From Umbelopsis ramanniana AG (lineage: Eukaryota > Mucoromycota > Umbelopsidomycetes > Umbelopsidales > Umbelopsidaceae), in assembly GCF_025399195.1 (NCBI RefSeq), contig NW_026252144.1, positions 102,416 through 166,415 of the forward strand: DNA of 64,000 nucleotides. Direction: 5' to 3'. The notes under the pieces are model-generated. The model was not told the origin of the DNA and searched no databases. It saw only the letters and a program-made list of their open reading frames with translations. Each line of letters starts with the position of its first letter. Positions within the stretch are counted from its first letter, which is position 1. Shown here in pieces: positions 23,386-53,022 of the stretch. A program made the translations under genes and the position numbers.

Positions 23386-26300
23386 TTATCGCTTCCTTTT
23401 GGGGTGTACACTCTTTTTCCGAGAATTAGACTTGAGAGTGAGTCGTTTATCGCCAAGCCATATTCTTTCAAAACTAGCTGTGATACCGTAATCCGTTTCC
23501 ACGTCGTCAAATAGTCGCTCAAATTCGTCTTCTTCTATTTGACAGCATTGAAGCCGATAACACAATTTGACGGGTCGTCCTCCGCCTGTTTGCCAGTCTT
23601 CACCGTATTCCATTACAAGCATGATGGATCTGATATCATGCACAATGGCAACTTTTAAATTTGAATATTCTTGCTGTCCCGCCTTTGCCTCTTCGATGAT
23701 ATTGGTCAATCCTACGAATCTGCCTTCCGCAATTTTCAGATCCTTCCAGTCATTTAATATCTTTAGTATCTTGCTTACACCTTCATCTTCGACAAGCTGT
23801 ACTTCAAAACTTATGCCAAAATGACTGACCATCACCGGTGCTGATGACTGCCGGCAATTTGCAAGTTGGTAGTTGATATCGTCTGTACCTGGTAAGAGAT
23901 TTCCGAAAGAAGTTTCTTTACTTGGAAAGCTTAAAAAAGATAGATCGCCTTCTTGTATTGCCAATTCATGTAGTAGTCGTTCACGAGATTTGAGTCCCTC
24001 ACCATAGGCTAGAGGCAAGTATATGGAAAATATACCTGCCAGCGCATACGCTTTGTCTTCTTTCCGCGTTGTCTCTCGAGCGTCCATCCTTGCGAGTATT
24101 TCAGCAGCATTTCCCGGCCGGTAAGAGAAGTGGAGATCCAATGTACAGAGATTAACTTCTTGCTCTTTGGCTAATTGTTGTATTGAGAGAAGCTCTCCTG
24201 TGGGGGTTATCCCACACAAGATACCAGCCGCAACCCCTTCCTGCAGACACCATCCTCTCTCGCACCATCCGTTCTTGGTCTTCGTTTGGATACCAGTAAT
24301 ACTGTTATCTCCATTATTTCCCAACCGAGTTCCAGATTCTAGAACAACAGCAGCGCAATTCTTATACCATTTGTGCATTGAACGGATAGCTTCATCAAGT
24401 TCGGTCATATTCGACTTATCAATACAAATTGTGTCGAGCCATACATATTTTTTATATTTACGGAGGGCGGTCCGAATGTCTTTTAACTTTTTTGACTTTT
24501 TGCTGATGCTGCCTTGTCTGCCGCCTTTGCAATCCTTTACCCCCGAATAGTCGACTTCATGTTCAGCCCATGTATGGGTAATAAAGATAACATCTGTGGT
24601 CTTCTTTGCCGTCAACAATGTATCGCTTTCCAAATCCCACACCCGAGTTACAATTTCCTCTTCTCGAGTGTGCCATATATCAATCCCAACTGCTTTGGCA
24701 GCAGCTATGGGCGATAGTGGGCGATGCGTGAACTGCGACATGCATTGGCACCTAACTCGGTTTAAAATCCGCCAATCTGAGGATGCCTTCATCGACTTGT
24801 ATCCTTGAATATCCTCCACTTTCTCACCAAGAATGGCCTTTACGAGCTGATCAATATGTGCATCACTATCAGTAATACTCAAGATGCTCAAACCAGCTAT
24901 CAACATAGCATGTAAGTCCGTCGCAATATTTGCTTCAGACTCTCCAAGAATTTCAGAAAATGCGTCGTGATCTACTCGGTTAGACAATCTTCTACAAACA
25001 TAAACAGCCCTGATGAATCTCAAATAGGGACGTTCGAACTTGTTCCATCTTGGTAACAAGTCGTTCCTCTCGGGTGGAATCTGTACAAGCAAACGACCGG
25101 GTTCTCGAATAATTCCGTCCATTCTGTCAAATGGCAAGGCAATTTTTGGAGATCTAGTGTTGATTTGATCGTCCAATTGTAGCATGAAAAATTGATCAGA
25201 TATGAAGAAGTGAACATCGAAGATACGGAGCAAGGTCTCGATTAGTGTGTTAGCGCGCTCCTCTATAGATATGCTATGCAGGAGCTTCAATGTCTGCGAA
25301 GGCTCTTTTAGTGACTGTGATGTTGCAAGATAATTCATCTCAGGATATCGAAGCTTTCTAGACGACGGAAACCCATAACCGTACTTGTGTCTGATATTGG
25401 ACAGTCTCTTGGTAGGACGGGGTTTTGCTAACATACGGATGAAATAAATATTAGAGATGTCATAATGGCATCCATAGCAGAAAGATACTCACTTTTAAAA
25501 TTATGGATCCAATTGTCACTGAAGATTTTCAACACTACAGCAGATGTATCATGTTCGATATCCTTTTCTGCGTTCAAGCCTGCTGCTTCCATTTTGACAG
25601 CTTTTATGGTGGAATTCCTCAATGTACTTTGCCACAACAGCAGTTTCTGTTTCCATTCTTCGGATATTCGTAAGCATGTAACATCAGCGCCAGCTGTAAG
25701 TAATAAGACTACTACTTCGCGGTCATAGCGGAGAAATCTGTCATCTTTGAAATCCTTGTACCTATTTTTTCCTTGGAAGGCCATCACTAAGGGCGAAAAG
25801 CCATCGATATCTGTAATGTTAACAGAAGCTCCTCCATCTAGCAACATTTTGACCATAGTTACAGATTGATTTTCTACTGCTGAGAACAGTGGGGTTCGTC
25901 CTCCATTCGTCATAGCGTTTACATTTGCTCCATGTTTAATTAGTAACGCGGCCATTTTTGCTAGTTTGTATTGTACTGCAACATGCAGTGCAGTACGCCC
26001 CAGATACAGTTTGCCATTAACATCCGCATTACTGTTAAGCAAGAATTCAACGGCTTTTTCATTTCCACTTTTGACAGCGATCTTTAAGGCTGTTGAGAGG
26101 TTGAAGCTTTTGACTTCTAGATTGCTCCCATGATAAACTAGCAGTTTTACTAGTTCATGGAAATCCTTTTTGATTGCCAGATGAAGCGCTGTCTCGCCCT
26201 TACCGTTTACAGCATTAATGTCGATTCCTTTTTCTATAAGGAGAGTGGCCACTTGTGGTTGATTTGCAGAAATCGCAGTGTGAAGTGCTGTATATCCGTT

Positions 26301-28943
26301 TCGATAGGACTGTATATCATACCCATGGCTCAACAACACCGCTATTGCCTTATCTTTACCTAGACTAGCATAATAATGAAGTGCAGGTTCGTATTTCTTG
26401 TTTATGAAGGCTTGCATACTAGCTCCTCTATGTAAGAGCATTGCCATTATTTCCGGATACTCTCCTGCTAAGAAGAGCGATGTTTGTCCACATTGATTAC
26501 TGCTTTCGATATCTGCGCCGATGTCTAACAGATGTTTTACTAAATCAACATCACCATGTTGCGAAGATCTGAGAAGTGCCTTATTCATATAAAGGGTCTT
26601 TTGGTCGACATTGTCGATCGTATTTAGAGCCCTTAGCAAAAATTCTACTTTTCCAGTGTCTGCAATTGAATCTATGAGTGGCATTTGGTCGCCACCAGGA
26701 TTCTTTATGTCACTGTCGGCCTTTAATAGCAAACACATCAAATCAGCATTATCTTGCAAAATAGCAATTTGAACCGGTGTCTGTTTTTCTTGGTTTTCAT
26801 CATTAATCTCAGCTCCATGTTTGATCAAGGTAGTAGCAGCGTCGCTCTGATTGAATTTAACAGCAATATGAAGTGCAGTATCTCCGTTATTCGTCCTTGT
26901 GTCAAGTTTTGCACCTTTTGCTATCAACAAATCGATAAGCCTAACATTTCCATCTTTTGCTGCCGAATGCAATGCTGTTAAGGAATACATGTCGGTTGCT
27001 TCCATATCTGCACCATTATTTATAAACAAATCTATCAGTTCGAAAAGACTTGATTTCGAAGCAATCAGTAGAGGAGTTTCTCCTTTCTCGTTTGTAGTTT
27101 CAAGATTTGCACCATGGTTTAGTAACACATGCGCTATTTTGGAATGCCCGCTATGTGTGGCTAGCTCAAGTGCCGTCCTCGATTGCCCATCTTTTGCGTC
27201 TACAGTAGCGCTTCGATCTAATGAACCATCTTTTGCGTCTACAGTAGTGCACCGATCTAATAACAACTCTACTAATGTGTCCCATCCTGCTCGAACAGCA
27301 AAATGAAGCGCAGTATTTGAATTGCGGTCTTTCTGGTTAATAGAAGCACCTCCATCTAATAGAACTTCTACTATAGGCTTATGCCTGTGAATGACTGCAA
27401 AGTGCAGTGCAGTACTCGAATTTAAGTCTTCTGCGTCAACTGTAGCTCCCTTCTCTAGTAGCAGCTTTGCTATTGCCAGATTTTTGATGGAAGCAGCTGC
27501 ATGAAGAGCAGATTTCCCATTGCAGTCTTGCGTGTCAACATTGGCACCTCTTTCTAGTAGTAAACTTACTACATGCTGGTGATCGTTCCNNNNNNNNNNN
27601 NNNNNNNNNNNNNNNNNNNNNNNNNNNNNNNNNNNNNNNNNNNNNNNNNNNNNNNNNNNNNNNNNNNNNNNNNNNNNNNNNNNNNNNNNNNNNNNNNNNN
27701 NNNNNNNNNNNNNNNNNNNNNNNNNNNNNNNNNNNNNNNNNNNNNNNNNNNNNNNNNNNNNNNNNNNNNNNNNNNNNNNNNNNNNNNNNNNNNNNNNNNN
27801 NNNNNNNNNNNNNNNNNNNNNNNNNNNNNNNNNNNNNNNNNNNNNNNNNNNNNNNNNNNNNNNNNNNNNNNNNNNNNNNNNNNNNNNNNNNNNNNNNNNN
27901 NNNNNNNNNNNNNNNNNNNNNNNNNNNNNNNNNNNNNNNNNNNNNNNNNNNNNNNNNNNNNNNNNNNNNNNNNNNNNNNNNNNNNNNNNNNNNNNNNNNN
28001 NNNNNNNNNNNNNNNNNNNNNNNNNNNNNNNNNNNNNNNNNNNNNNNNNNNNNNNNNNNNNNNNNNNNNNNNNNNNNNNNNNNNNNNNNNNNNNNNNNNN
28101 NNNNNNNNNNNNNNNNNNNNNNNNNNNNNNNNNNNNNNNNNNNNNNNNNNNNNNNNNNNNNNNNNNNNNNNNNNNNNNNNNNNNNNNNNNNNNNNNNNNT
28201 GCGTCAACTGCAGCTCCCTTCTCTAGTAATAGCTTTGCTGTTATCGGATATCCCATGGAAACAGCTGCATGAAGCGCAGTTTCCAAATCACAGTCTTGCG
28301 TGTCGACAGCGGCATCCCTTTCTATCAGTAACTTAACTAAATCCTGGTGTTCATTCCATATAGCCAAGAAAAGTGCAGTACTCGAGGTATGGTTTATTTT
28401 GTCGACAGCAGCTCCTTCATCCATTAGTAGATTTACGACTTCCTTATGACCTTTAACGGCAGCCAAATGTAATGGAGTATTTGAATGGGAATCTTGTGCG
28501 TCAATATCGGCACCTACATCTAGTAGTATCTTCACTACCTCCTGATATCCGTCACTTGCCGCCATGTGAAGCGGAGTAATACTACAGTCATTTTTTCCTA
28601 CAGTAGTAATTTGGGATTGCTGCATCATTGAAATAAAAGCTGAATCGTCACATCTATCCACGCTAAGTGCATCGATTGGAGTGTATGCATTCGTGCCATA
28701 ATTGGAACCAACGCTTGGTAGAAAGTTGGCTAATTGCTGATACCTTTCACATGCAGCTAAATGATGTTGTACACTTGACTCGCCACACATTGCTTTAGTA
28801 GAAATATCATAATCTACTAATGAGCTTTGTTCCTCGCCTTGGCAGTTTGTGATTTTTTTCATAGTTACCATATCGAACCACCGAAGGAGAAAGCGCTTTT
28901 CGCTACTATAGTCTGTCCTGGAATATTCATCCTTAGACTGCAT
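23386..28943 (-). CDS. Giant ankyrin-repeat protein with C-terminal HET domain
   Basis: One gene of two exons, about 1830 aa. Exon 1 (28943-25493) begins MQSKDEYSRTDYSSEKRF and holds more than 20 ankyrin repeats (GYQEVVKILLDVGADIDAQD, NKKGETPLL-type units). The intron (25492-25428, 65 bp, AAA A|GTGAGT ... TTAG|CA) restores phase so that WIHNFK continues as TKPRPTKR; the ATG at 25434 lies inside the intron and is not a start. Exon 2 carries an uncharacterised helical region, then a HET-type core: TTDVIFITHTWAEHEVDYSG, YVWLDTICIDKSNMTELDEA, IRSMHKWYKNCAAVVLESG, CERGWCLQEGVAAGI and EDKAYALAGIFSIYLPLAYG. HET domains trigger incompatibility cell death in other fungi. Family membership is by motif; the target is unknown. 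A 610-bp run of N (27590-28199) interrupts the array but keeps frame. No NACHT or NB-ARC motif is visible. Confidence 0.85.
27187..27264. repeat. 39-bp tandem duplication in the ankyrin coding region
   Basis: The unit starting CCATCTTTTGCGTCTACAGT at 27187 recurs at 27226. It duplicates 13 residues (DRCTTVDAKDGSL / DRSATVDAKDGQS), inserting a partial repeat between two full ankyrin units while keeping frame. Confidence 0.9.
27590..28199. other. Assembly gap (610 N) inside the ankyrin array
   Basis: All bases are N. The flanks (27433-27589 and 28201-28357) are close copies of each other and of the repeat consensus, so the gap probably reflects tandem repeats that the assembler could not resolve. 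The real length and copy number are unknown. Confidence 0.95.
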
Positions 28944-34605: not shown

Positions 34606-35990
34606 TTAGAGGAGCATGAAAGCGGCAGCAGCGGCGGCGGCGGCAGTCACAACACTAGCGGTAGCCATGGAAGCACCAGAAGTAGCTTTGGTGGTAGCAG
34701 CTCCAGAAGCGGCAGCGTTGACGCCTGATGCAGATGCACCAGATGAGCCAGAGGCAGCAGCGGTGGTGTTGGCGGTGGTGGCATTAGCGGTGGTAACACC
34801 CTCCTTGTAGACGCTGGCAAGACCGGCGCAAGTACCGACGGGAATAACGTTATAAGCCTTCTTGAGGACAGGCAAGATGCGAATGGCAGCATCGACAGTT
34901 CCCTGGTACAAATCGTGTTCAAGGGAAAGACCACCGACAGCGGCAGTAGCAGCCTCAGCAGCCCAAGCAGTAGCGTTTCCGTCAATCCAGGTGGGATCGA
35001 AGCCGGCAGCTTCGCTGATCTTCCAATCGTCAGTATCGTGGTTCCAGATGACGGGAGTGTAACCCAACTGAAGGGCAATGTCACGGACACGGTTATCGAT
35101 ATCACCATAAGGCTAAACAAGGGAATTAGAGTGTGAGTTAGAATGGATGATGTTGCCAAAACAAATGTAAAAATTGGAAAAAAAAAAAAAACTTACAGGA
35201 CGGAAGAGCTTGGGAGAAACACCAATGACTTCCTTAATAGCTTCTTCAGTCCATCTGAGCTCACCAACGATTTGCTCGGTGGTCTGGGAGGTCAAGTAGG
35301 AGTGAGAGAAGCCGTGGATAGCGATTTCGTGACCAGCCTTGTATGCGCGCTGGACCAATTCAGGGAATTGCAAAACTTGTCCACCAATGACGAAAAGGGT
35401 GGCCTTTTGGTTAATGCTATCCAAGTAGTCATAAAGCGTAGGGCTGAAGCCAGTGGGACCGTCGTCATAGGTAAGACCCCAGTCACCCTTCTTGCACTGG
35501 TAGATATCATCAGCACGAGTGCAGCCACCGAAGGTCCAGTCGCAGTACGGATCAGATCCAGGGGTGGGGTTGACGGGAGATCCATTTGTAAGGGCAATAA
35601 CAGGAGCAGCAGCAATCTTGGAAGTATCCAAAGCAGCAACCCATTCAGGCTTAGGAACGGGCACAGAGCCAGGAGCAGGGTAGGTTTGCTTCCAGACGAA
35701 AGTGCCAGTAGGAACGTAGCTATAATAGTGGCAAATTAGTTGGGCATAAATTGAATAGCATTGTCGTGTGAATTGGGTGCTTACGTTGGTGCAGCAGTAG
35801 CAGCAGCTGAAGTGGTAGCAGGAGCTTTTGTGGTAGTGACAGCAGCAGGAGTGGTGGTGGTGGTGACGGGAGCTTTAGTGGTGGTGGTGTGAGTGGCTGC
35901 GGCCGTGGTGGTGGTGGTTGTTTCAGCAGTGGTAGTAGCTGCGTTCACAGAGGCAAGGGCGAGAGCGGCGATGAGGATAAGGGAGCGCAT
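34606..35990 (-). CDS. Chitin deacetylase (CE4), GPI-anchored
   Basis: It converts chitin to chitosan at the cell wall. MRSLILIAALALASVNA is a signal peptide (start at 35990; an in-frame ATG 21 bp upstream is less likely). A Thr/Pro-rich linker follows. The CE4 domain shows motif 1 GLTYDDGP (catalytic base Asp and metal Asp), motif 2 HGFSHSYL (metal His), motif 3 RPPYGDIDNRVRD, rebuilt across an intron, motif 4 DTDDWKI and motif 5 GLSLEHDLYQG. Before it sits YCDWTFGGCTRADDI, common in Mucorales chitin deacetylases. The C-terminus is Ala/Ser/Thr-rich and ends in a hydrophobic tail (VVTAAAAAAAAFMLL), a GPI signal. Introns near 35115-35197 and 35720-35784. Mucorales walls are chitosan-rich, which fits. 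Confidence 0.94.
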
Positions 35991-36652: not shown

Positions 36653-39600
36653 CTAATCAAAGATATCAATGGGAGCGAGTTTGTCAGTGTTAAATAAGAA
36701 GTCATTACGGTCATCTTCAGCCTCCATAAACTTGGTTGGAAATATGACCAAGTTGCCTCTGATTTCAGCGAGAATATCTTCGATACGGTGAACTTGTTGA
36801 TTGACCTGTTCTTCTGTTTTGCCAGTGGTTTCAACCAACGCTTTGCCACGAGGATCGACTTCGCCATCTTTGATATCACCGCCTTCTGCAACATTCGCTG
36901 CATGATGAGAGCCATGGAGGTCAGAGAGGTCGTGGTGTCCCATCAAACCTTTCTCCGTCATTTCCTTGAACTCCTTGTAGCGTGCCCATGTAGTTACATT
37001 ATCGTCTGGGACGGCCAAGAAGACTCGGCGGTAACAATCCGTGTTGTGATTAGCGGTACGCTGCCAGAGATGGATGAAGAAATCGTCATCCAGAGGGTCC
37101 ATAAGGAGATCAATATCAAGGCTGGGCAGAGGATCCGTACTGACATCATCCATTTGGACGCTCTTCCAGAATTTCTGTTCCTTTTCTCGGTCACTTGCTA
37201 CGCGTGCTTCCTGCTGCTGTTGTTTTTGCGAGGATGTGCTGCTGTTATCTTGGGTCAAGATGTTACTTTGATCCACGTTGATATGTGACACAAGTCCTGC
37301 TGCCGTTGAAGTGTTGCTAGGTACCGGAGATAGCGGTTGTGAGCTTGCCTGCTGTTGTTCAGAAGCTGGAGACTGGTCATTTCCTGGCTTGGTTTGAGAT
37401 GGTGCACTGGCGTCAGCTTCAGACTGTTCGTTGAAAGATGGGTCAGTTGGAGGCACAACACGTACAGCCTCCGACCGGTGCTCATTTGGTGCTGACATGG
37501 AAGATTGTCTGTCTGTTGGACCAGCTTGTGTACCCTGAGCCGAGTCCTTGTTTTCTGTTTCATGAGCAGGTCCCACACGTTTTCCAGCACCTGAAGCAAA
37601 CTGGTCGGACATTTTTTCTTGCTTTTCAGCTGTTCTTTCGTTGCTTGCTTTGGCTTCGCCTTCATCCCAATCGCCTTCAACGGGAACCTTGGGCCAATCT
37701 TCGTCAGTTGGTTCGTTCTCACCACGCTTTTCATGATCAAAGGCATCTCCAGAGCGGTCACTGCGGTTTTCACCGATGTCATGTAGAGACTTGTCCATTC
37801 TAGCTTCGTTTTCGACAGCTTCATCCTCCTGACCACGGCCATCATTGCCTTGATCCTCCTCGTCATCTTCCTCCTCCTCGTCGCTTCCAAATTGAACGTA
37901 ATCAATGTCACCATTTTGGATTTGTTCAACTTCGATGGCATCCACGTCCACACCCAAATGTTCTTGCATGAGACGAAGACGAAGGGTGTGAGCAAAGTGG
38001 CCGACTTGATAGGGCTTGCCACCCAGACGAGATTCAACCATGTTGGAGTCACGCACATAAGCGGCAATTTCAGAATCACGATTGCCTCTCTGAGAGCGTT
38101 CATTAATATTGGCAGATCCAATAATAACAATACGGTCATCAACAACCATAGTCTAATAAATGAAGAAATCCGTTGAGCAACAAGTAAAAAAAAATCCCAG
38201 AAATTCAGCACATCGCTGAGTAGCCAGTAGCTTACCTTAGCATGAATGTACACTTGTTCCGTAACGAACTCTCCACCGAGACTTCCCCAGTTGCGAAGAG
38301 AGTAGAACGTGATATAGTCGTCAGGATTGATGTTCTTAGCCTTCAAGCGACCATAGATAGAATGTTCGCCACGGCAAATGGATCTGTATTGGCACATCAT
38401 GATCATACGAATTGACATACCGTCAGGTTCGTCGACATTGGACTGGAAAGCCGGTACCAGGGGAATGACAATAATGGCACGCCATTTGTCACCCTGCTCG
38501 TGAGCACGAAGGATACGCTCCACCAAAGCATCACCGATCTTATTTTCAACCGTAGTGTTTCCAATGACGGTGGAAGTGACGAAGAACTGGTTCTCTATAT
38601 AGACCAGATGCTCTGATTCCTGAATACTCTTGACATAGGCATCATGGATACTATGCTCAACACGATCACGGTAGCCGATACTCCAGCTTGATGAGGAGCG
38701 TAGGATTTGAACTTCGCATGTACCCGTCAAATTGAGTTTTTTAAGCTCAGCAGGAGTGTAGTCAGGCTTAGGAAGAAGGTAAGGGGTTGGACGCTTGGGA
38801 GCTTTCTTGGATCTCAAGAAATTCCATCGTTGAACAAAGTGACGGGCCACATCTCGAGCAGGTTGGCCGACGACTTGCATTGAGATGTCGTGCCATGGCA
38901 TGCGAGGAATCTTGTCACGATCCATATTGTCTTCTTCAGGCTTGTCAAGGGTATGGAAGTCGAGGATTCTAGGGTTAGAGTAATCTTTGCCGTGCCATAT
39001 TTGGGGGTTTTTGACGTTCTTGTCCAGTTTGGCATCGCGTTCATCGACCAAGACGTGAGTAGGCGTATCCCAGCGACCAAAGCAAAGATCAATTCCGCCG
39101 AGAAAAGCAAGATGGTTATCAATCACACAAATTTTTTCGTGGTGAGCCCAGAAAAAGGTAGCAGTCTTGCCAGCTATACCAAGATGTGAAGGATGTCGCA
39201 TGACGAAGATATTTGGAGAGAGAGATAGCAAATGTTCTTTTGCATAGTGAGAGTAGAGAGGCAAAGTGATAGACACTTCCTTGTACATGATAATATAAAT
39301 CTTGACACCTTGCTTGGCCTTGCGCTGTAAAAGACGATCCAATCTCCATTTGAAGTTATGAGCAGCCGGTCGTCGCATGTAAAGTTCTGCAGACAACCAC
39401 CAGTCATGGATGTAGATTTCCTCCTTAGCGTTGGCAATGGCTTTTGCAACGTTCCAGAAATAATTTCTGCCATCCACGAGCCACTGTGCGTTACAGTCGT
39501 AGCGAATAGGCGCAAAACTATCGAAGCGCTGGTTGGGAGTTCTCCAGATACAGTTTGATTCGAGTTCTTTTAGAGAGTTGTAAAACTGGGTAGCTTGAGT

Positions 39601-41530
39601 TTCGTTTTTGGCCCGAAGATGCATGACTCGCTGTGAGTTTTGAACCTCAAGGGTATTAGCATGCTTTCTGTGGCGTTCAACTTTGAATTCGCTGTCCACT
39701 AAAAGAACATCATAAATGATCGACTAGGACAGGGTCAGTAAAAATAAAAAATAATAAAAAAAGGACTGGCTTCATCGAGCACACCCCATGTACCACTAGT
39801 CCAAAAAGTTTGAAACTTACAGAATCAGGCTCGTCCACACAAGCAATATAGCTATGTCTTGTCAAGAACCACTTGGGGGTCAGGCGTTTGTGAATATTCT
39901 TGAAGTGTACTCCACAGAAAGCAGCTCGATGCGCAGAAGGGATCTGATCACTACGACGCTCCACCATCATGTACCCTTCCTTTCCTTGATAACCACCATC
40001 CGCTGCTAGTTGAACACCAAGAGCTGAGATTTCAAAGAACTTGCAAAGACGATTGGCTTCACCACGGAACATGAGACAGCGAGTAAGATCTATCAAATAA
40101 CTCTCTAGCGTCTTTCTTTGTTCAGCGGAGAATTTGGCCTGTTGTACGGCATGATCACCCGAGTGGTTGGATCTGAACGAGAAAAACGAAGTATTATGGT
40201 GGTTGATGTTGGGTCGTCGAGGGTCGTCAGAGTCATTGTCGCCGGCATTAAGGTGACCCGCCAACTTCTTCAAAGCAATATTATCCTCGCTTCGTGATGC
40301 TCTGCGGGCAACGTCGTCATCCTCTACATCGTCTTCCAGATCTGAGGACGAGGCGTCATCGTCGTCTCGATAGCCGATAAAGTAAGGCAAACTGTGTTTG
40401 GGAAACTTGGGCAAACCCTTGATTCGAGTTCGGGTGGGATCGTAGCGGCGATAACTATAGTGAAGATTGAGGAAATCTCGGTACCGTCGCTGAATGACCC
40501 ATTTCATTAGCCCATCACCGTACTCAAGTTCGATGCGGAATGTCGCTCGGCTTCGGTTCAAGGGCTCTTCGGAATCAGTGATGCGAATTTTAAGTTGTGA
40601 TAAAACAACGGGAATTCTTGGCGATTTGTGTTCATCACGTTGCATAGCCATGCCGATAATCATGGCAGGCTGAATATTGAGCAAGTTTTCCGTAATAACG
40701 TCTGCTCCAGTTCTATTACGTTTGGCTTCACGAAGAGCGTCCGTGTTTGAACGACCTTTAGATTGGAGCTGATTCTGAAATCGGATGGTGTTTCGTAGTT
40801 TGCCCCATCTATTTGCCGCATTCTTTGATGGCTGAGTTGAGGTATCGTCAGGCTGATCCATGGTCTTCTCACTGAAATTGACAGCAGAGGAGGTCGAAGC
40901 ATCACCAGTAGCACCCTCATTTTTGTTGGGTTCCCTGTTGTCGACGTCCTTCTTCTCATTCATTTCTATCGAATTTGCATTCTCCGAGGGCTTGGAGCGT
41001 CCAGAAAGAGACGAGCGGAGAGAAGCAACACCAACGCTGTTTCGGTTGTCAGATCGAGCAGCGGCGTTGGATTTTTTGCGACGGGTTTGAGAAGTATTAG
41101 ACTTGGTTTTTCGAAGATCGCTAATGCTGGTGGTATCCATATCTTCCGAGTTGAGATCACTGTCCCAAAACGTCAAGTCTCTGGTATTCAGCTGTGGGCG
41201 TTTATTCTTTGAGAATCCTCCGCTCATCACTCCTTTCACTTTGTCCACCATGGACGGCCTTTCTGCTGTGTCATCGAAAGCGGCATGGGGAGCAGAGCCA
41301 TTCTCAGTAGGAGCCTTGCCATTGGTATTTTGATCTTGATGATGGGCTGGAGGTAGGCCATTTTGAGCCTGCTGGCCCTCGGTTCTTTGCTGTGTGGTAT
41401 CTACATTGTCTGAAGTCCCTGTTGATTCAGCGGCTTCTGACGGCGGCTGCTGGTTGTCTGGAGCGGTAGCGTTGACTTGTTCAGCTTCTGGCAAATGCGA
41501 GTTGGCATCGCCGGGAGTCAGCTTGAACAT
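36653..41530 (-). CDS. Phospholipase D, PX-PH type (Spo14/PLD1)
   Basis: Three exons (41530-39821, 39723-38236, 38152-36653) give about 1565 aa. The enzyme cleaves phosphatidylcholine to phosphatidic acid and choline, acting in secretion and membrane formation. The N-terminal ~270 residues are disordered and charged. The PX domain has FRIELEYGDGLMKWVIQRRY and RRYRDFLNLHYSYRR; an acidic insert splits PX from its end (LESYLIDLTRCLMFRGEANR). A PH domain follows (KRLTPKWFLTRHSYIACVDE). The catalytic half has HKD1 HHEKICVIDNHLAFLGGIDL and HKD2 HAKTMVVDDRIVIIGSANIN; the second intron sits between the Lys and Thr of HKD2. IYIEN-type motif reads LVYIENQFFVT. The ~230-residue segment after HKD2 is acidic and Gln/Ser-rich, longer than usual. 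The exact start codon is the first in frame. Confidence 0.95.
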
Positions 41531-41975
41531 CGAAGAATGCTAAAGCAAGAGGAAATTTTTTTTGGTTTTGCAATTTTGGAGATTCAAATGTGCCTGAAAC
41601 TGCTTTTCAAAAAAGGCAACTAAGATGGTTACAGCTTATTTACGTCATACCCCAGACTTGGAAAAATGAAAGAATTCAAGGCGATTCATGTTGGCGCGAG
41701 TGGGAAAATTCGTCGATGCATAAAATTTCAGATAACAGAATTTATCGGGTGAAATATGCCAGTCAACGGCCTGACAAAAAGTTATACTTGCATGTTGACA
41801 GCATCGTCATAACAAAATATCAGGTTGGAGTTACACATACGAAACAAACCATGATGTTTTGAAAAATAACCACAGCAAAGCAATCCATGATAAATATGAA
41901 CAATTTCTAGAAACAGTGTAATATACAAGTTGTATGAGAATGTTTGCATCTATGGCATAAAGGGCTGTTTTTTTT
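41531..41975. other. Intergenic, PLD promoter and URI 3' flank
   Basis: No gene seen. The plus-strand ORF at 41590-41862 has no recognisable content and lies in the expected PLD 5' region. Confidence 0.4.
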
Positions 41976-50719: not shown

Positions 50720-53022
50720 TTAGAATCGGAGATCCCAGCCAATCTTGGGTCCAATGGTAGGTAGCACCTCGACCACAGTGTGCATATCCTTATCACCTCT
50801 GCCAGAAAGACAGACAAGGACATCCTGATCCTTAGGAAGCTCACTGGCAAGCTTGTGTGCAGCGTAGATAGCATGTGCAGATTCCAAAGCAGGAATGATA
50901 CCTTCGAGTTGAGTAAGCATACGGAAACCAATGAGAGCTTGAGTATCATCAGCAACAACGTATTCAGCACGACCGCTATCCTTCAACCAAGCGTGTTCAG
51001 GTCCGACACCGGGGTAATCAAGTCCAGCACTGACAGAGTGGGTTTCGAGAATCTGGCCCTTGCTATCCTGGAGAAGATAAGTACGGGTTCCGTGCAAGAC
51101 ACCAGGGGTACCAATAGTAAGAGTAGCCGAGTGGTGTTCAGTATCCACACCAGAACCACCTGCTTCAACACCAACGATACGAACATTCTTGTCTTCGATG
51201 TAAGGGTGGAAGAGACCAATGGAGTTAGAGCCACCACCAACGCAAGCGACAATGGCATCAGGCAATTTGCCAGCCTTTTCCTGCATTTGGAGTTTAGATT
51301 CTTGACCAATGACAGATTGGAAGTCTCGGACAATCATGGGGAAGGGGTGGGGTCCGATGGCGGAACCGACAAGATAATGTGTGGTGGACTCGTTGGTGAC
51401 CCAGTCTCTCATGGCTTCGTTGATAGCATCCTTCAAGGTACGAGATCCAGCTTCAACAGGAACGACGGTGGCACCCAACATCTTCATACGGAAAACGTTC
51501 AAAGCTTGACGACGGCAATCCTCAGCTCCCATATAGACAGTGCACTCCAAACCAAATTTAGCACAAACGGTGGCAGTGGCCACACCGTGTTGTCCAGCAC
51601 CCGTCTCAGCAATGATACGCTTCTTACCAATGCGCTTGGCGAGCAAAATTTGTCCAACGGCATTGTTGATCTTGTGTGAACCAGTGTGGTTGAGATCTTC
51701 ACGCTTGAGCCAGATTCTAGCACCGCCAGCGTCTTCTGTAAGTCGAGCAGCGAGTTGAAGTTGAGAAGGTCTTGAAATATAGTCATAGTACGATTCAAAT
51801 TCCTTGATGAACTCGGGATCGTGCTTAGCCTCGATATAAGCTTTCTCAAGCTGGGTGAGACAGTCGACCAAAGACTCTGGGACATAAGCACCGCCAAATT
51901 CACCATAGCGAGTGGGCATAGCATAAAATCCGTTGGCAGTATCTTCCGTGGGCACTACAATACCCTTACCAGCAATGTCGGTGATTTCAGGAGCATCGGT
52001 CGTATCATCAACAACAGTGTCCAATTCGATGTCCTTGCGACCGCTAACCTCTGCAGCGTATTGTTGAACAAGCTGTGCTCCAGTACCAGGTGCAGCTTCT
52101 CTCAGAAGAGTGATGATCTTGGATCCAATGACAACACCATCAGCGTGTTCACCAACGGTTGTAAAATGGTCGCGAGTGGTAACACCAAATCCAACAGCCA
52201 AGGGGGCATCGGTATACTTGCGGATACGTGCAATCATAGAAGGAAGGTTGGTGTTGACCTCAGAGGATGAGCCAGTGACACCCATCTTGGAAACAACGTA
52301 GATGAAGGAATCGGCGATGTTGGCCAGAAGTTGAATACGTTGCTCGGTAGTGGAGGGTGCAATCAATGGCACGTAAGAAAGTCCGTGCTTGGAGCAAATG
52401 CCACGGAACTTTGCAGATTCTTCCGGAGGAAGATCAACGAGAATATAGCCATTCACACCAGCATCCTTGCAGTCTTGAACGATCTTTTCTTCGCCATATG
52501 CAAGAACTGGGTTATAGTAGCCCATGAAGACGATGGGCACCTTAAGACCCTTTGAACGAGCCGTCTTAACCATGTCCAAGCACATGGGGATATCAGTATT
52601 GTACTTGAGCGATTCCTAATGTGTTATAAAGATTAGTTTAGTGTGTGGTACCAGACCAATGACCAGCGTAAGAGTAACACTTACAGTGTTTGCATATTGA
52701 ATGGTGGGACCATCGGCCAATGGATCGGTGAAAGGGATACCTATACGCCATAAAGGTTACTCCTGTGAAGTCTCATCCTCTTCTATTCATTCACAGTACT
52801 TACCAAGTTCAATGACATCGGCACCACCTCTCTCTAAACCAAGAAGGATATCGACAGTTTCAGCAGGAGAAGGGAAGCCTGCAGTAGTAAAGGCGACAAA
52901 AGCGGGACGATCTAGTGAATGGAGGGTGAGATCTTCAGGAAAAAAGGAATAAGGGATATCCAGAAGGTGTGCTTACTTTGACGCTTTGCTCTGCTAAAAG
53001 TTTTGCGTAATAGATCAGACAT
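50720..53022 (-). CDS. TRP5: Bifunctional tryptophan synthase (alpha-beta fusion)
   Basis: It makes L-tryptophan from indole-3-glycerol phosphate and serine, channelling indole between the two active sites. The first exon is [15 protein letters not shown] at 53022. Alpha domain: [39 protein letters not shown] (catalytic Glu in VIELG; Asp in FTDPLADGP), [20 protein letters not shown] and [19 protein letters not shown]-type [13 protein letters not shown] short linker with [19 protein letters not shown] leads to the beta domain: [40 protein letters not shown] (Lys after SH binds PLP), [36 protein letters not shown] and [11 protein letters not shown]. Introns occur only in the N-terminal 150 codons. 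It ends WDLRF at 50720. Alpha-first fusion is the fungal arrangement. Confidence 0.97.

Follow-up and report, generated by a model that had tools for sequence, protein, structure and literature searches.

An ankyrin-first HET protein of Umbelopsis ramanniana AG belongs to a multicopy family of probable immune-type receptors

What does a HET domain do near the end of a protein that begins with ankyrin repeats? The question is raised by a gene on the minus strand of a 64,000-nucleotide stretch of DNA (the window; contig NW_026252144.1, positions 102,416 to 166,415) from Umbelopsis ramanniana AG, a member of Mucoromycota, order Umbelopsidales, which agrees with the kind of host that an earlier reading of the sequence had suspected. 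That reading, the original prediction, described more than 20 N-terminal ankyrin repeats joined across one intron to a C-terminal HET-type core, with no NTPase in view, and proposed a repeat-sensing receptor. The gene does not stand alone but is one of about 17 copies. The encoded chain runs from ankyrins through a segment designated ND to the HET part and a C-terminal segment designated CD. It probably represents an undescribed, multicopy, receptor-like family of immune type. The specific reading that we favor, and to which we give an even chance, is a single-chain intracellular repeat-sensing receptor of a lineage-specific Umbelopsis family, with a TIR-like effector and a layout like that of SARM1 rather than HET-E.

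An Ankyrin-First HET Gene Family

Is the joining of ankyrin repeats to HET genuine? In exon 1, Pfam detects the 33-residue tandem ankyrin repeats over cut-off (Ank_2, E = 8.5e-124, 404.9 bits, 12 stretches), and a repeat model built for this analysis counts 22 repeats in the visible sequence, of which 20 reach 1e-3, in line with the predicted number. NCBIfam matches to this exon were of ankyrin type only, all under their own cut-offs, and were judged generic. In exon 2, PF06985 scores above its curated cut-off (34.7 bits vs. 22.5; E = 2.7e-8; profile positions 27-88 of 146), which bears out the proposed HET identity, and the three motifs quoted in the original prediction are present in the translation. 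Both visible exons are open, and removal of the 65-bp intron yields 1830 residues with no internal stops; left unspliced, the exon-1 frame meets a stop at 25428. We infer the joining of the two exons from these frames and from relatives. A splice-site scan found in-frame GT-AG candidates near the equivalent place in most paralogues, although such pairs are many and weak taken alone, and for two loci (L016 and L022) the three or four best-ranked candidates listed included no short intron.

How widespread is this arrangement? Searched with exon 2, the 22.8-Mb genome (123 contigs) gave 22 matches—17 near-complete copies and five short fragments—with the other 16 near-complete copies at 46-61% identity to the window's exon 2. 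Ankyrin coding sequence lies upstream of HET on the same strand in all 17. In 15 of them, the window's included, the ankyrin and HET frames share a strand and overlap, abut (gap of at most 42 bases), or coincide, and the other two, on contig C14 and at 166 kb on contig C11, have ankyrin matches upstream on the same strand; at the C11 copy, ankyrins and HET share a single open frame, which spans 4707 codons and passes across N. In one paralogue, L020 on contig C2, the two parts form a single frame of 1942 residues with no interruption. Among proteins, a search for long relatives returned 22, of which 20 (P0001-P0020) were labelled Umbelopsis and two (P0021, P0022) were weak ascomycete matches. 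The order ankyrin, ND, HET held in 20/20 of the Umbelopsis proteins, a count that leans toward fusions, as the search returned only proteins of ~1068-3398 aa and split models were left out. All six U. ramanniana AG proteins retrieved and several from other Umbelopsis genomes are modelled as HET only, without ankyrins; these are either split models or true HET-only genes. Overall, judged from sequence, the ankyrin-HET join looks real.

The copies are clustered in the genome, with five near-complete ones on C11 (165-335 kb), three on C52, and two on C64. One copy, on C14 (C14:27048-28976), has an in-frame TAG in its HET part, and fragments lie at L025 (C11, 296.6-297.2 kb), C85:45462-45614, and C11:268566-268658; together, the fragments and the TAG-bearing copy suggest that copies have been gained and lost. 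A 45-row tree places the window gene together with U. vinacea P0095 (support 100/100), and several other copies also pair across species with starred support; because of this pairing, much of the family expansion predates the species. The orthologue models are short. P0095 matches window residues 1-118 (54% identity) and then 1561-1830 (87%), and P0099, from Umbelopsis sp. AD052, matches residues 1-115 (52%), 1561-1615 (87%), and 1679-1804 (82%). Both models thus retain the N-terminal segment and portions of the final ~270 residues, with the whole array and the HET core absent—either lost in their ancestor or skipped by both gene models.

Two other loci are of note. L023, on contig C4, is a different HET frame of 824 aa with no ankyrin match (33.1 bits). 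A paralogue at ~89.7-94.2 kb on C52 (L024:6285-9899, L022:3-3032) has a stop-free C-terminal extension of several hundred residues within a frame of 1515 aa; the part of the extension that was scanned has no Pfam match, and beyond its first ~120 residues there is no second match in the genome.

A Predicted TIR-Like Effector Core

What kind of effector might the HET part be? The HET profile is over the Pfam cut-off at all 18 genome places listed, including the window's, and is matched by 16/16 members of alignment A1. The glutamate of the WCLQE motif, Glu1547 in the window protein, is kept in 70/70 rows of alignment A3. Just before the WCLQEG helix, a loop of the window protein exceeds that of 64 of 71 aligned rows by 16 residues, and in three distant rows it is longer still. 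Two structure models were well predicted (pLDDT 86; pTM 0.88 and 0.84). Of the 50 structural matches listed for the predicted HET core, 16 were TIR, 29 were NDT/DNPH1/MilB, and 3 were ThsA. With weak Z scores and a coherent list of matches, the modelled core resembles TIR and nucleoside-glycosidase folds.

Foldseek returned no match at E ≤ 0.001 for either model, a 16-member profile had none at E ≤ 1 among sequences of solved structures, the TIR profile had none in exon 2 at E ≤ 1, and PADLOC had none there at E ≤ 0.1. A HeLo search was also without a match, but its control was likewise unmatched, which makes the result uninformative.

Divergence of the Ankyrin Array

Do the two halves of the protein evolve alike? 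In the one pair on which this comparison rests, L020 and U. vinacea P0002, the 100-residue bins of 1401-1900, which take in the greater part of ND, HET, and CD, are 84-93% identical, whereas the ankyrin bins (101-1200) are 62-81% identical, with gaps of 40 and 8 columns within the array; the linker bin (1201-1300) falls to 47%, with 57 gap columns. Near-identical repeats, defined as those whose nearest neighbor agrees at ≥80% of bases, occur in 4 of 15 genes (L017, 13/30; L018, 10/24; L019, 6/19; L020, 6/29), and number 0 of 18 visible repeats in the window gene. Except for a 39-bp double, the visible part of that gene shows no sign that repeats were recently duplicated in tandem. Counted from the C-terminal end across genes, repeat colinearity gave no clear gradient of identity.

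Over 34 pairs of similar repeats, pN/pS was 0.59, and repeat positions 3 and 13 were the most changed. Seven repeat positions, which we take to be the target contacts in designed ankyrin proteins, had a mean pN of 0.211, compared with 0.107 at the remaining positions (shuffle P = 0.0013), and the excess persisted when they were compared only with positions outside the hydrophobic core (P = 0.025). This pattern of amino-acid change hints at, without proving, a binding surface under diversification.

Runs of N stand in or beside the ankyrin arrays of three members—the window gene (27590-28199), L015 (6754 N), and L019 (3878 N)—and at all three, the open frame carries on across the run or up to it. 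In the window gene, the reading frame is identical on either side of the 610-N run, which could accommodate about six further repeats.

ND, CD, and the Scarcity of NLR-Type Matches

What else does the chain hold? Exon 2 opens with more than 200 residues without a Pfam match. ND occupies exon-2 residues 40-224, and CD occupies exon-2 residues 501-660. ND is present in 20/20 of the long Umbelopsis relatives and CD in 18/20, the remaining two ending within HET; profiles of the two segments had 0/12 matches among distant HET proteins (P0021, P0022, P0100-P0109). As the original prediction had noted, no NTPase is visible: neither exon matched NACHT or NB-ARC at E ≤ 1, with ~203 codons masked by N, and the visible protein therefore does not classify as an NLR or STAND receptor. 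Nor did the exons match a SAM or ARM model of Pfam at E ≤ 1, which keeps the protein outside the SARM1 family proper.

Are such receptors encoded elsewhere in the genome? Exon-wise six-frame searches of this one genome, run with prokaryote controls and no proof of absence, found no match to NB-ARC, TIR, or TIR_2, one match to NACHT that was below cut-off and contained a stop, and two marginal NPHP3_N matches flagged over the cut-off of 24.8 (26 bits; 24.4 or 25 with neighbors). Because of this near-absence of NB-ARC, TIR, and NACHT matches compared with 17 near-complete copies of the family, a tentative and rather doubtful extension of our reading is that ankyrin-ND-HET-CD proteins, with HET as a TIR-like N-glycosidase, serve Umbelopsis as the main substitute for NLRs, with ND as an oligomerization or relay module in place of NACHT.

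Comparison with Known Systems

How does the layout compare with that of known HET proteins? The ankyrin-first, HET-last order, which had been called inverted, is indeed the reverse of that in ascomycete relatives: in the five scored (P0021, P0022, P0103, P0105, P0108), HET starts at residues 17-27, and in the two ankyrin-bearing ones scanned (P0103, P0108), the ankyrins are C-terminal. These two, from Cadophora (HET at residues 17-264) and Cladophialophora (27-241), represent ascomycete HET-ANK or HET-STAND-ANK proteins built from the same two domain families as the Umbelopsis protein, but have no match to the ND or CD profiles. The HNWD family of Podospora anserina (HET-E, HET-D, HET-R) likewise couples a HET effector to a repeat array, and its highly similar repeats can be likened to those of some Umbelopsis members. 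HNWD proteins have HET at the N terminus, a central NACHT NTPase, and WD40 repeats (PMC4986451), whereas the Umbelopsis protein has ankyrins first, no NTPase match, and HET near the C terminus. With SARM1 (ARM-SAM-TIR), the likeness is one of layout only—repeats first, effector last—with ankyrins in place of ARM, ND in place of SAM, HET in place of TIR, and CD in addition.

Published work already covers HET proteins of Mucoromycota, and so their occurrence outside the Dikarya, stressed in the original prediction, is not new. Lichtheimia corymbifera has 52 HET proteins, whose function and origin are called unclear (PMC4133162), and Apophysomyces has multiple HET copies whose function is said not to be clearly known (PMC5604411). 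These are multicopy expansions as in Umbelopsis; the accessible sections name no ankyrin partner (PMC4133162, PMC5604411), and the relatives listed here, for which names are partial, include none attributed to Lichtheimia or Apophysomyces. Judged from titles and the starts of abstracts, with most subscription papers outside its coverage, our literature search recognized no paper on Umbelopsis HET proteins or on ankyrin-first HET proteins. The ankyrin-ND-HET-CD family is new as far as that search reached.

Proposed Mechanism and Alternatives

How might such a protein work? The anatomy, the conserved glutamate, and the divergence of the repeats make sensing by repeats, coupled to a TIR-like effector, the likely mechanism. 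The ankyrin array would bind a protein, whether from an intruder or a guarded one of the host itself, and would otherwise hold the C-terminal HET part silent; binding of the ligand would free or cluster the HET part. The TIR-like core would then act through Glu1547, probably by breaking an N-glycosidic bond of NAD+ or of a similar nucleotide, and this activity would start a defense or cell-death response; both the enzymatic activity and cell death are presumed. The sensor-plus-effector receptor of the original prediction is consistent with how the domains are ordered and with repeats that diverge faster. If true, this compact NTPase-free chain would extend to fungal receptors the layout of animal SARM1, with repeats first and TIR last, and the many paralogues offer a resource for asking what the ankyrin sensors of early-diverging fungi recognize.

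Could the protein have a role other than immunity? The strongest competitor, still an unlikely one, is a stress or developmental regulator in which ankyrins act as a scaffold and HET signals without sensing non-self. It draws on the fact that for most HET genes no role in allorecognition is known (PMC10197012, PMC10890737) and on an overall pN/pS below 1 for similar repeats; recognition is the better fit, however, for a large family whose many copies include clusters and fragments, and for repeats that diverge faster than the HET half in the single pair compared. A vegetative-incompatibility (i.e., allorecognition) determinant as in ascomycetes is improbable. HET is common to HET-E, TOL, PIN-C, and HET-6 (PMC10197012), and the array and HET core are missing from the orthologue models of U. 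vinacea and AD052, as could be the case for a null allele; yet het loci are a small fraction of HET genes (5:125 in P. anserina; PMC10197012), and heterokaryons formed by somatic fusion are said to be absent in Mucorales, though Umbelopsis belongs to another order. More improbable still is a decaying copy without function, as the N run in the array, the truncated orthologue models in two relatives, and the other family fragments might suggest: both visible exons are open, and the family-invariant residues are kept (the window row being part of that count). Finally, the wrong merging of two adjoining genes, one ankyrin and one HET, is very improbable, since against the HET-only models of public annotation and the separate frames of most paralogues stand the uninterrupted frame of L020, the fusion of all 20 models from other genomes in a search limited to long proteins, and the ankyrins upstream of HET in all 17 copies.

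Gene Structure and Neighboring Genes

Feature coordinates are collected in Table 1.

Table 1. Features of the ankyrin-ND-HET-CD gene, in window coordinates
Feature	Position	Strand	Basis or remark
Whole ANK-ND-HET-CD gene, 1830 aa once the single intron is removed	23386..28943	-	Frames, Pfam, paralogues
Exon 1: ankyrin array preceded by an N-terminal segment of ~115 residues	25493..28943	-	Frames, Pfam, repeat model
Ankyrin array, 22 repeats visible	25680..28577	-	Repeat model
610 N within the ankyrin array	27590..28199	.	~203 codons hidden
Intron, 65 bp, GTGAGT...TTAG	25428..25492	-	Frames; paralogue GT-AG candidates weak alone
Exon 2: ND, HET, CD; stop codon included	23386..25427	-	Frames, Pfam, alignment
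ND, ~185 aa between ankyrins and HET, no Pfam match	24754..25308	-	Profiles, alignment
HET part (PF06985 match inside)	23926..24753	-	Pfam, alignment, model
TIR-like predicted HET core	24151-24597	-	Structure model
Loop immediately before the WCLQEG helix	24271..24321	-	Alignment
Codon for Glu1547, the putative catalytic residue of WCLQEG	24238..24240	-	Alignment A3
CD, ~160 aa after HET at the C terminus, no Pfam match	23446..23925	-	Profiles, alignment

Elsewhere in the window, the neighbors look ordinary: a polysaccharide deacetylase (35116-35874), phospholipase D motifs beside a PX frame (36656-41539), and a tryptophan synthase alpha plus PLP-enzyme frame (50723-52615).

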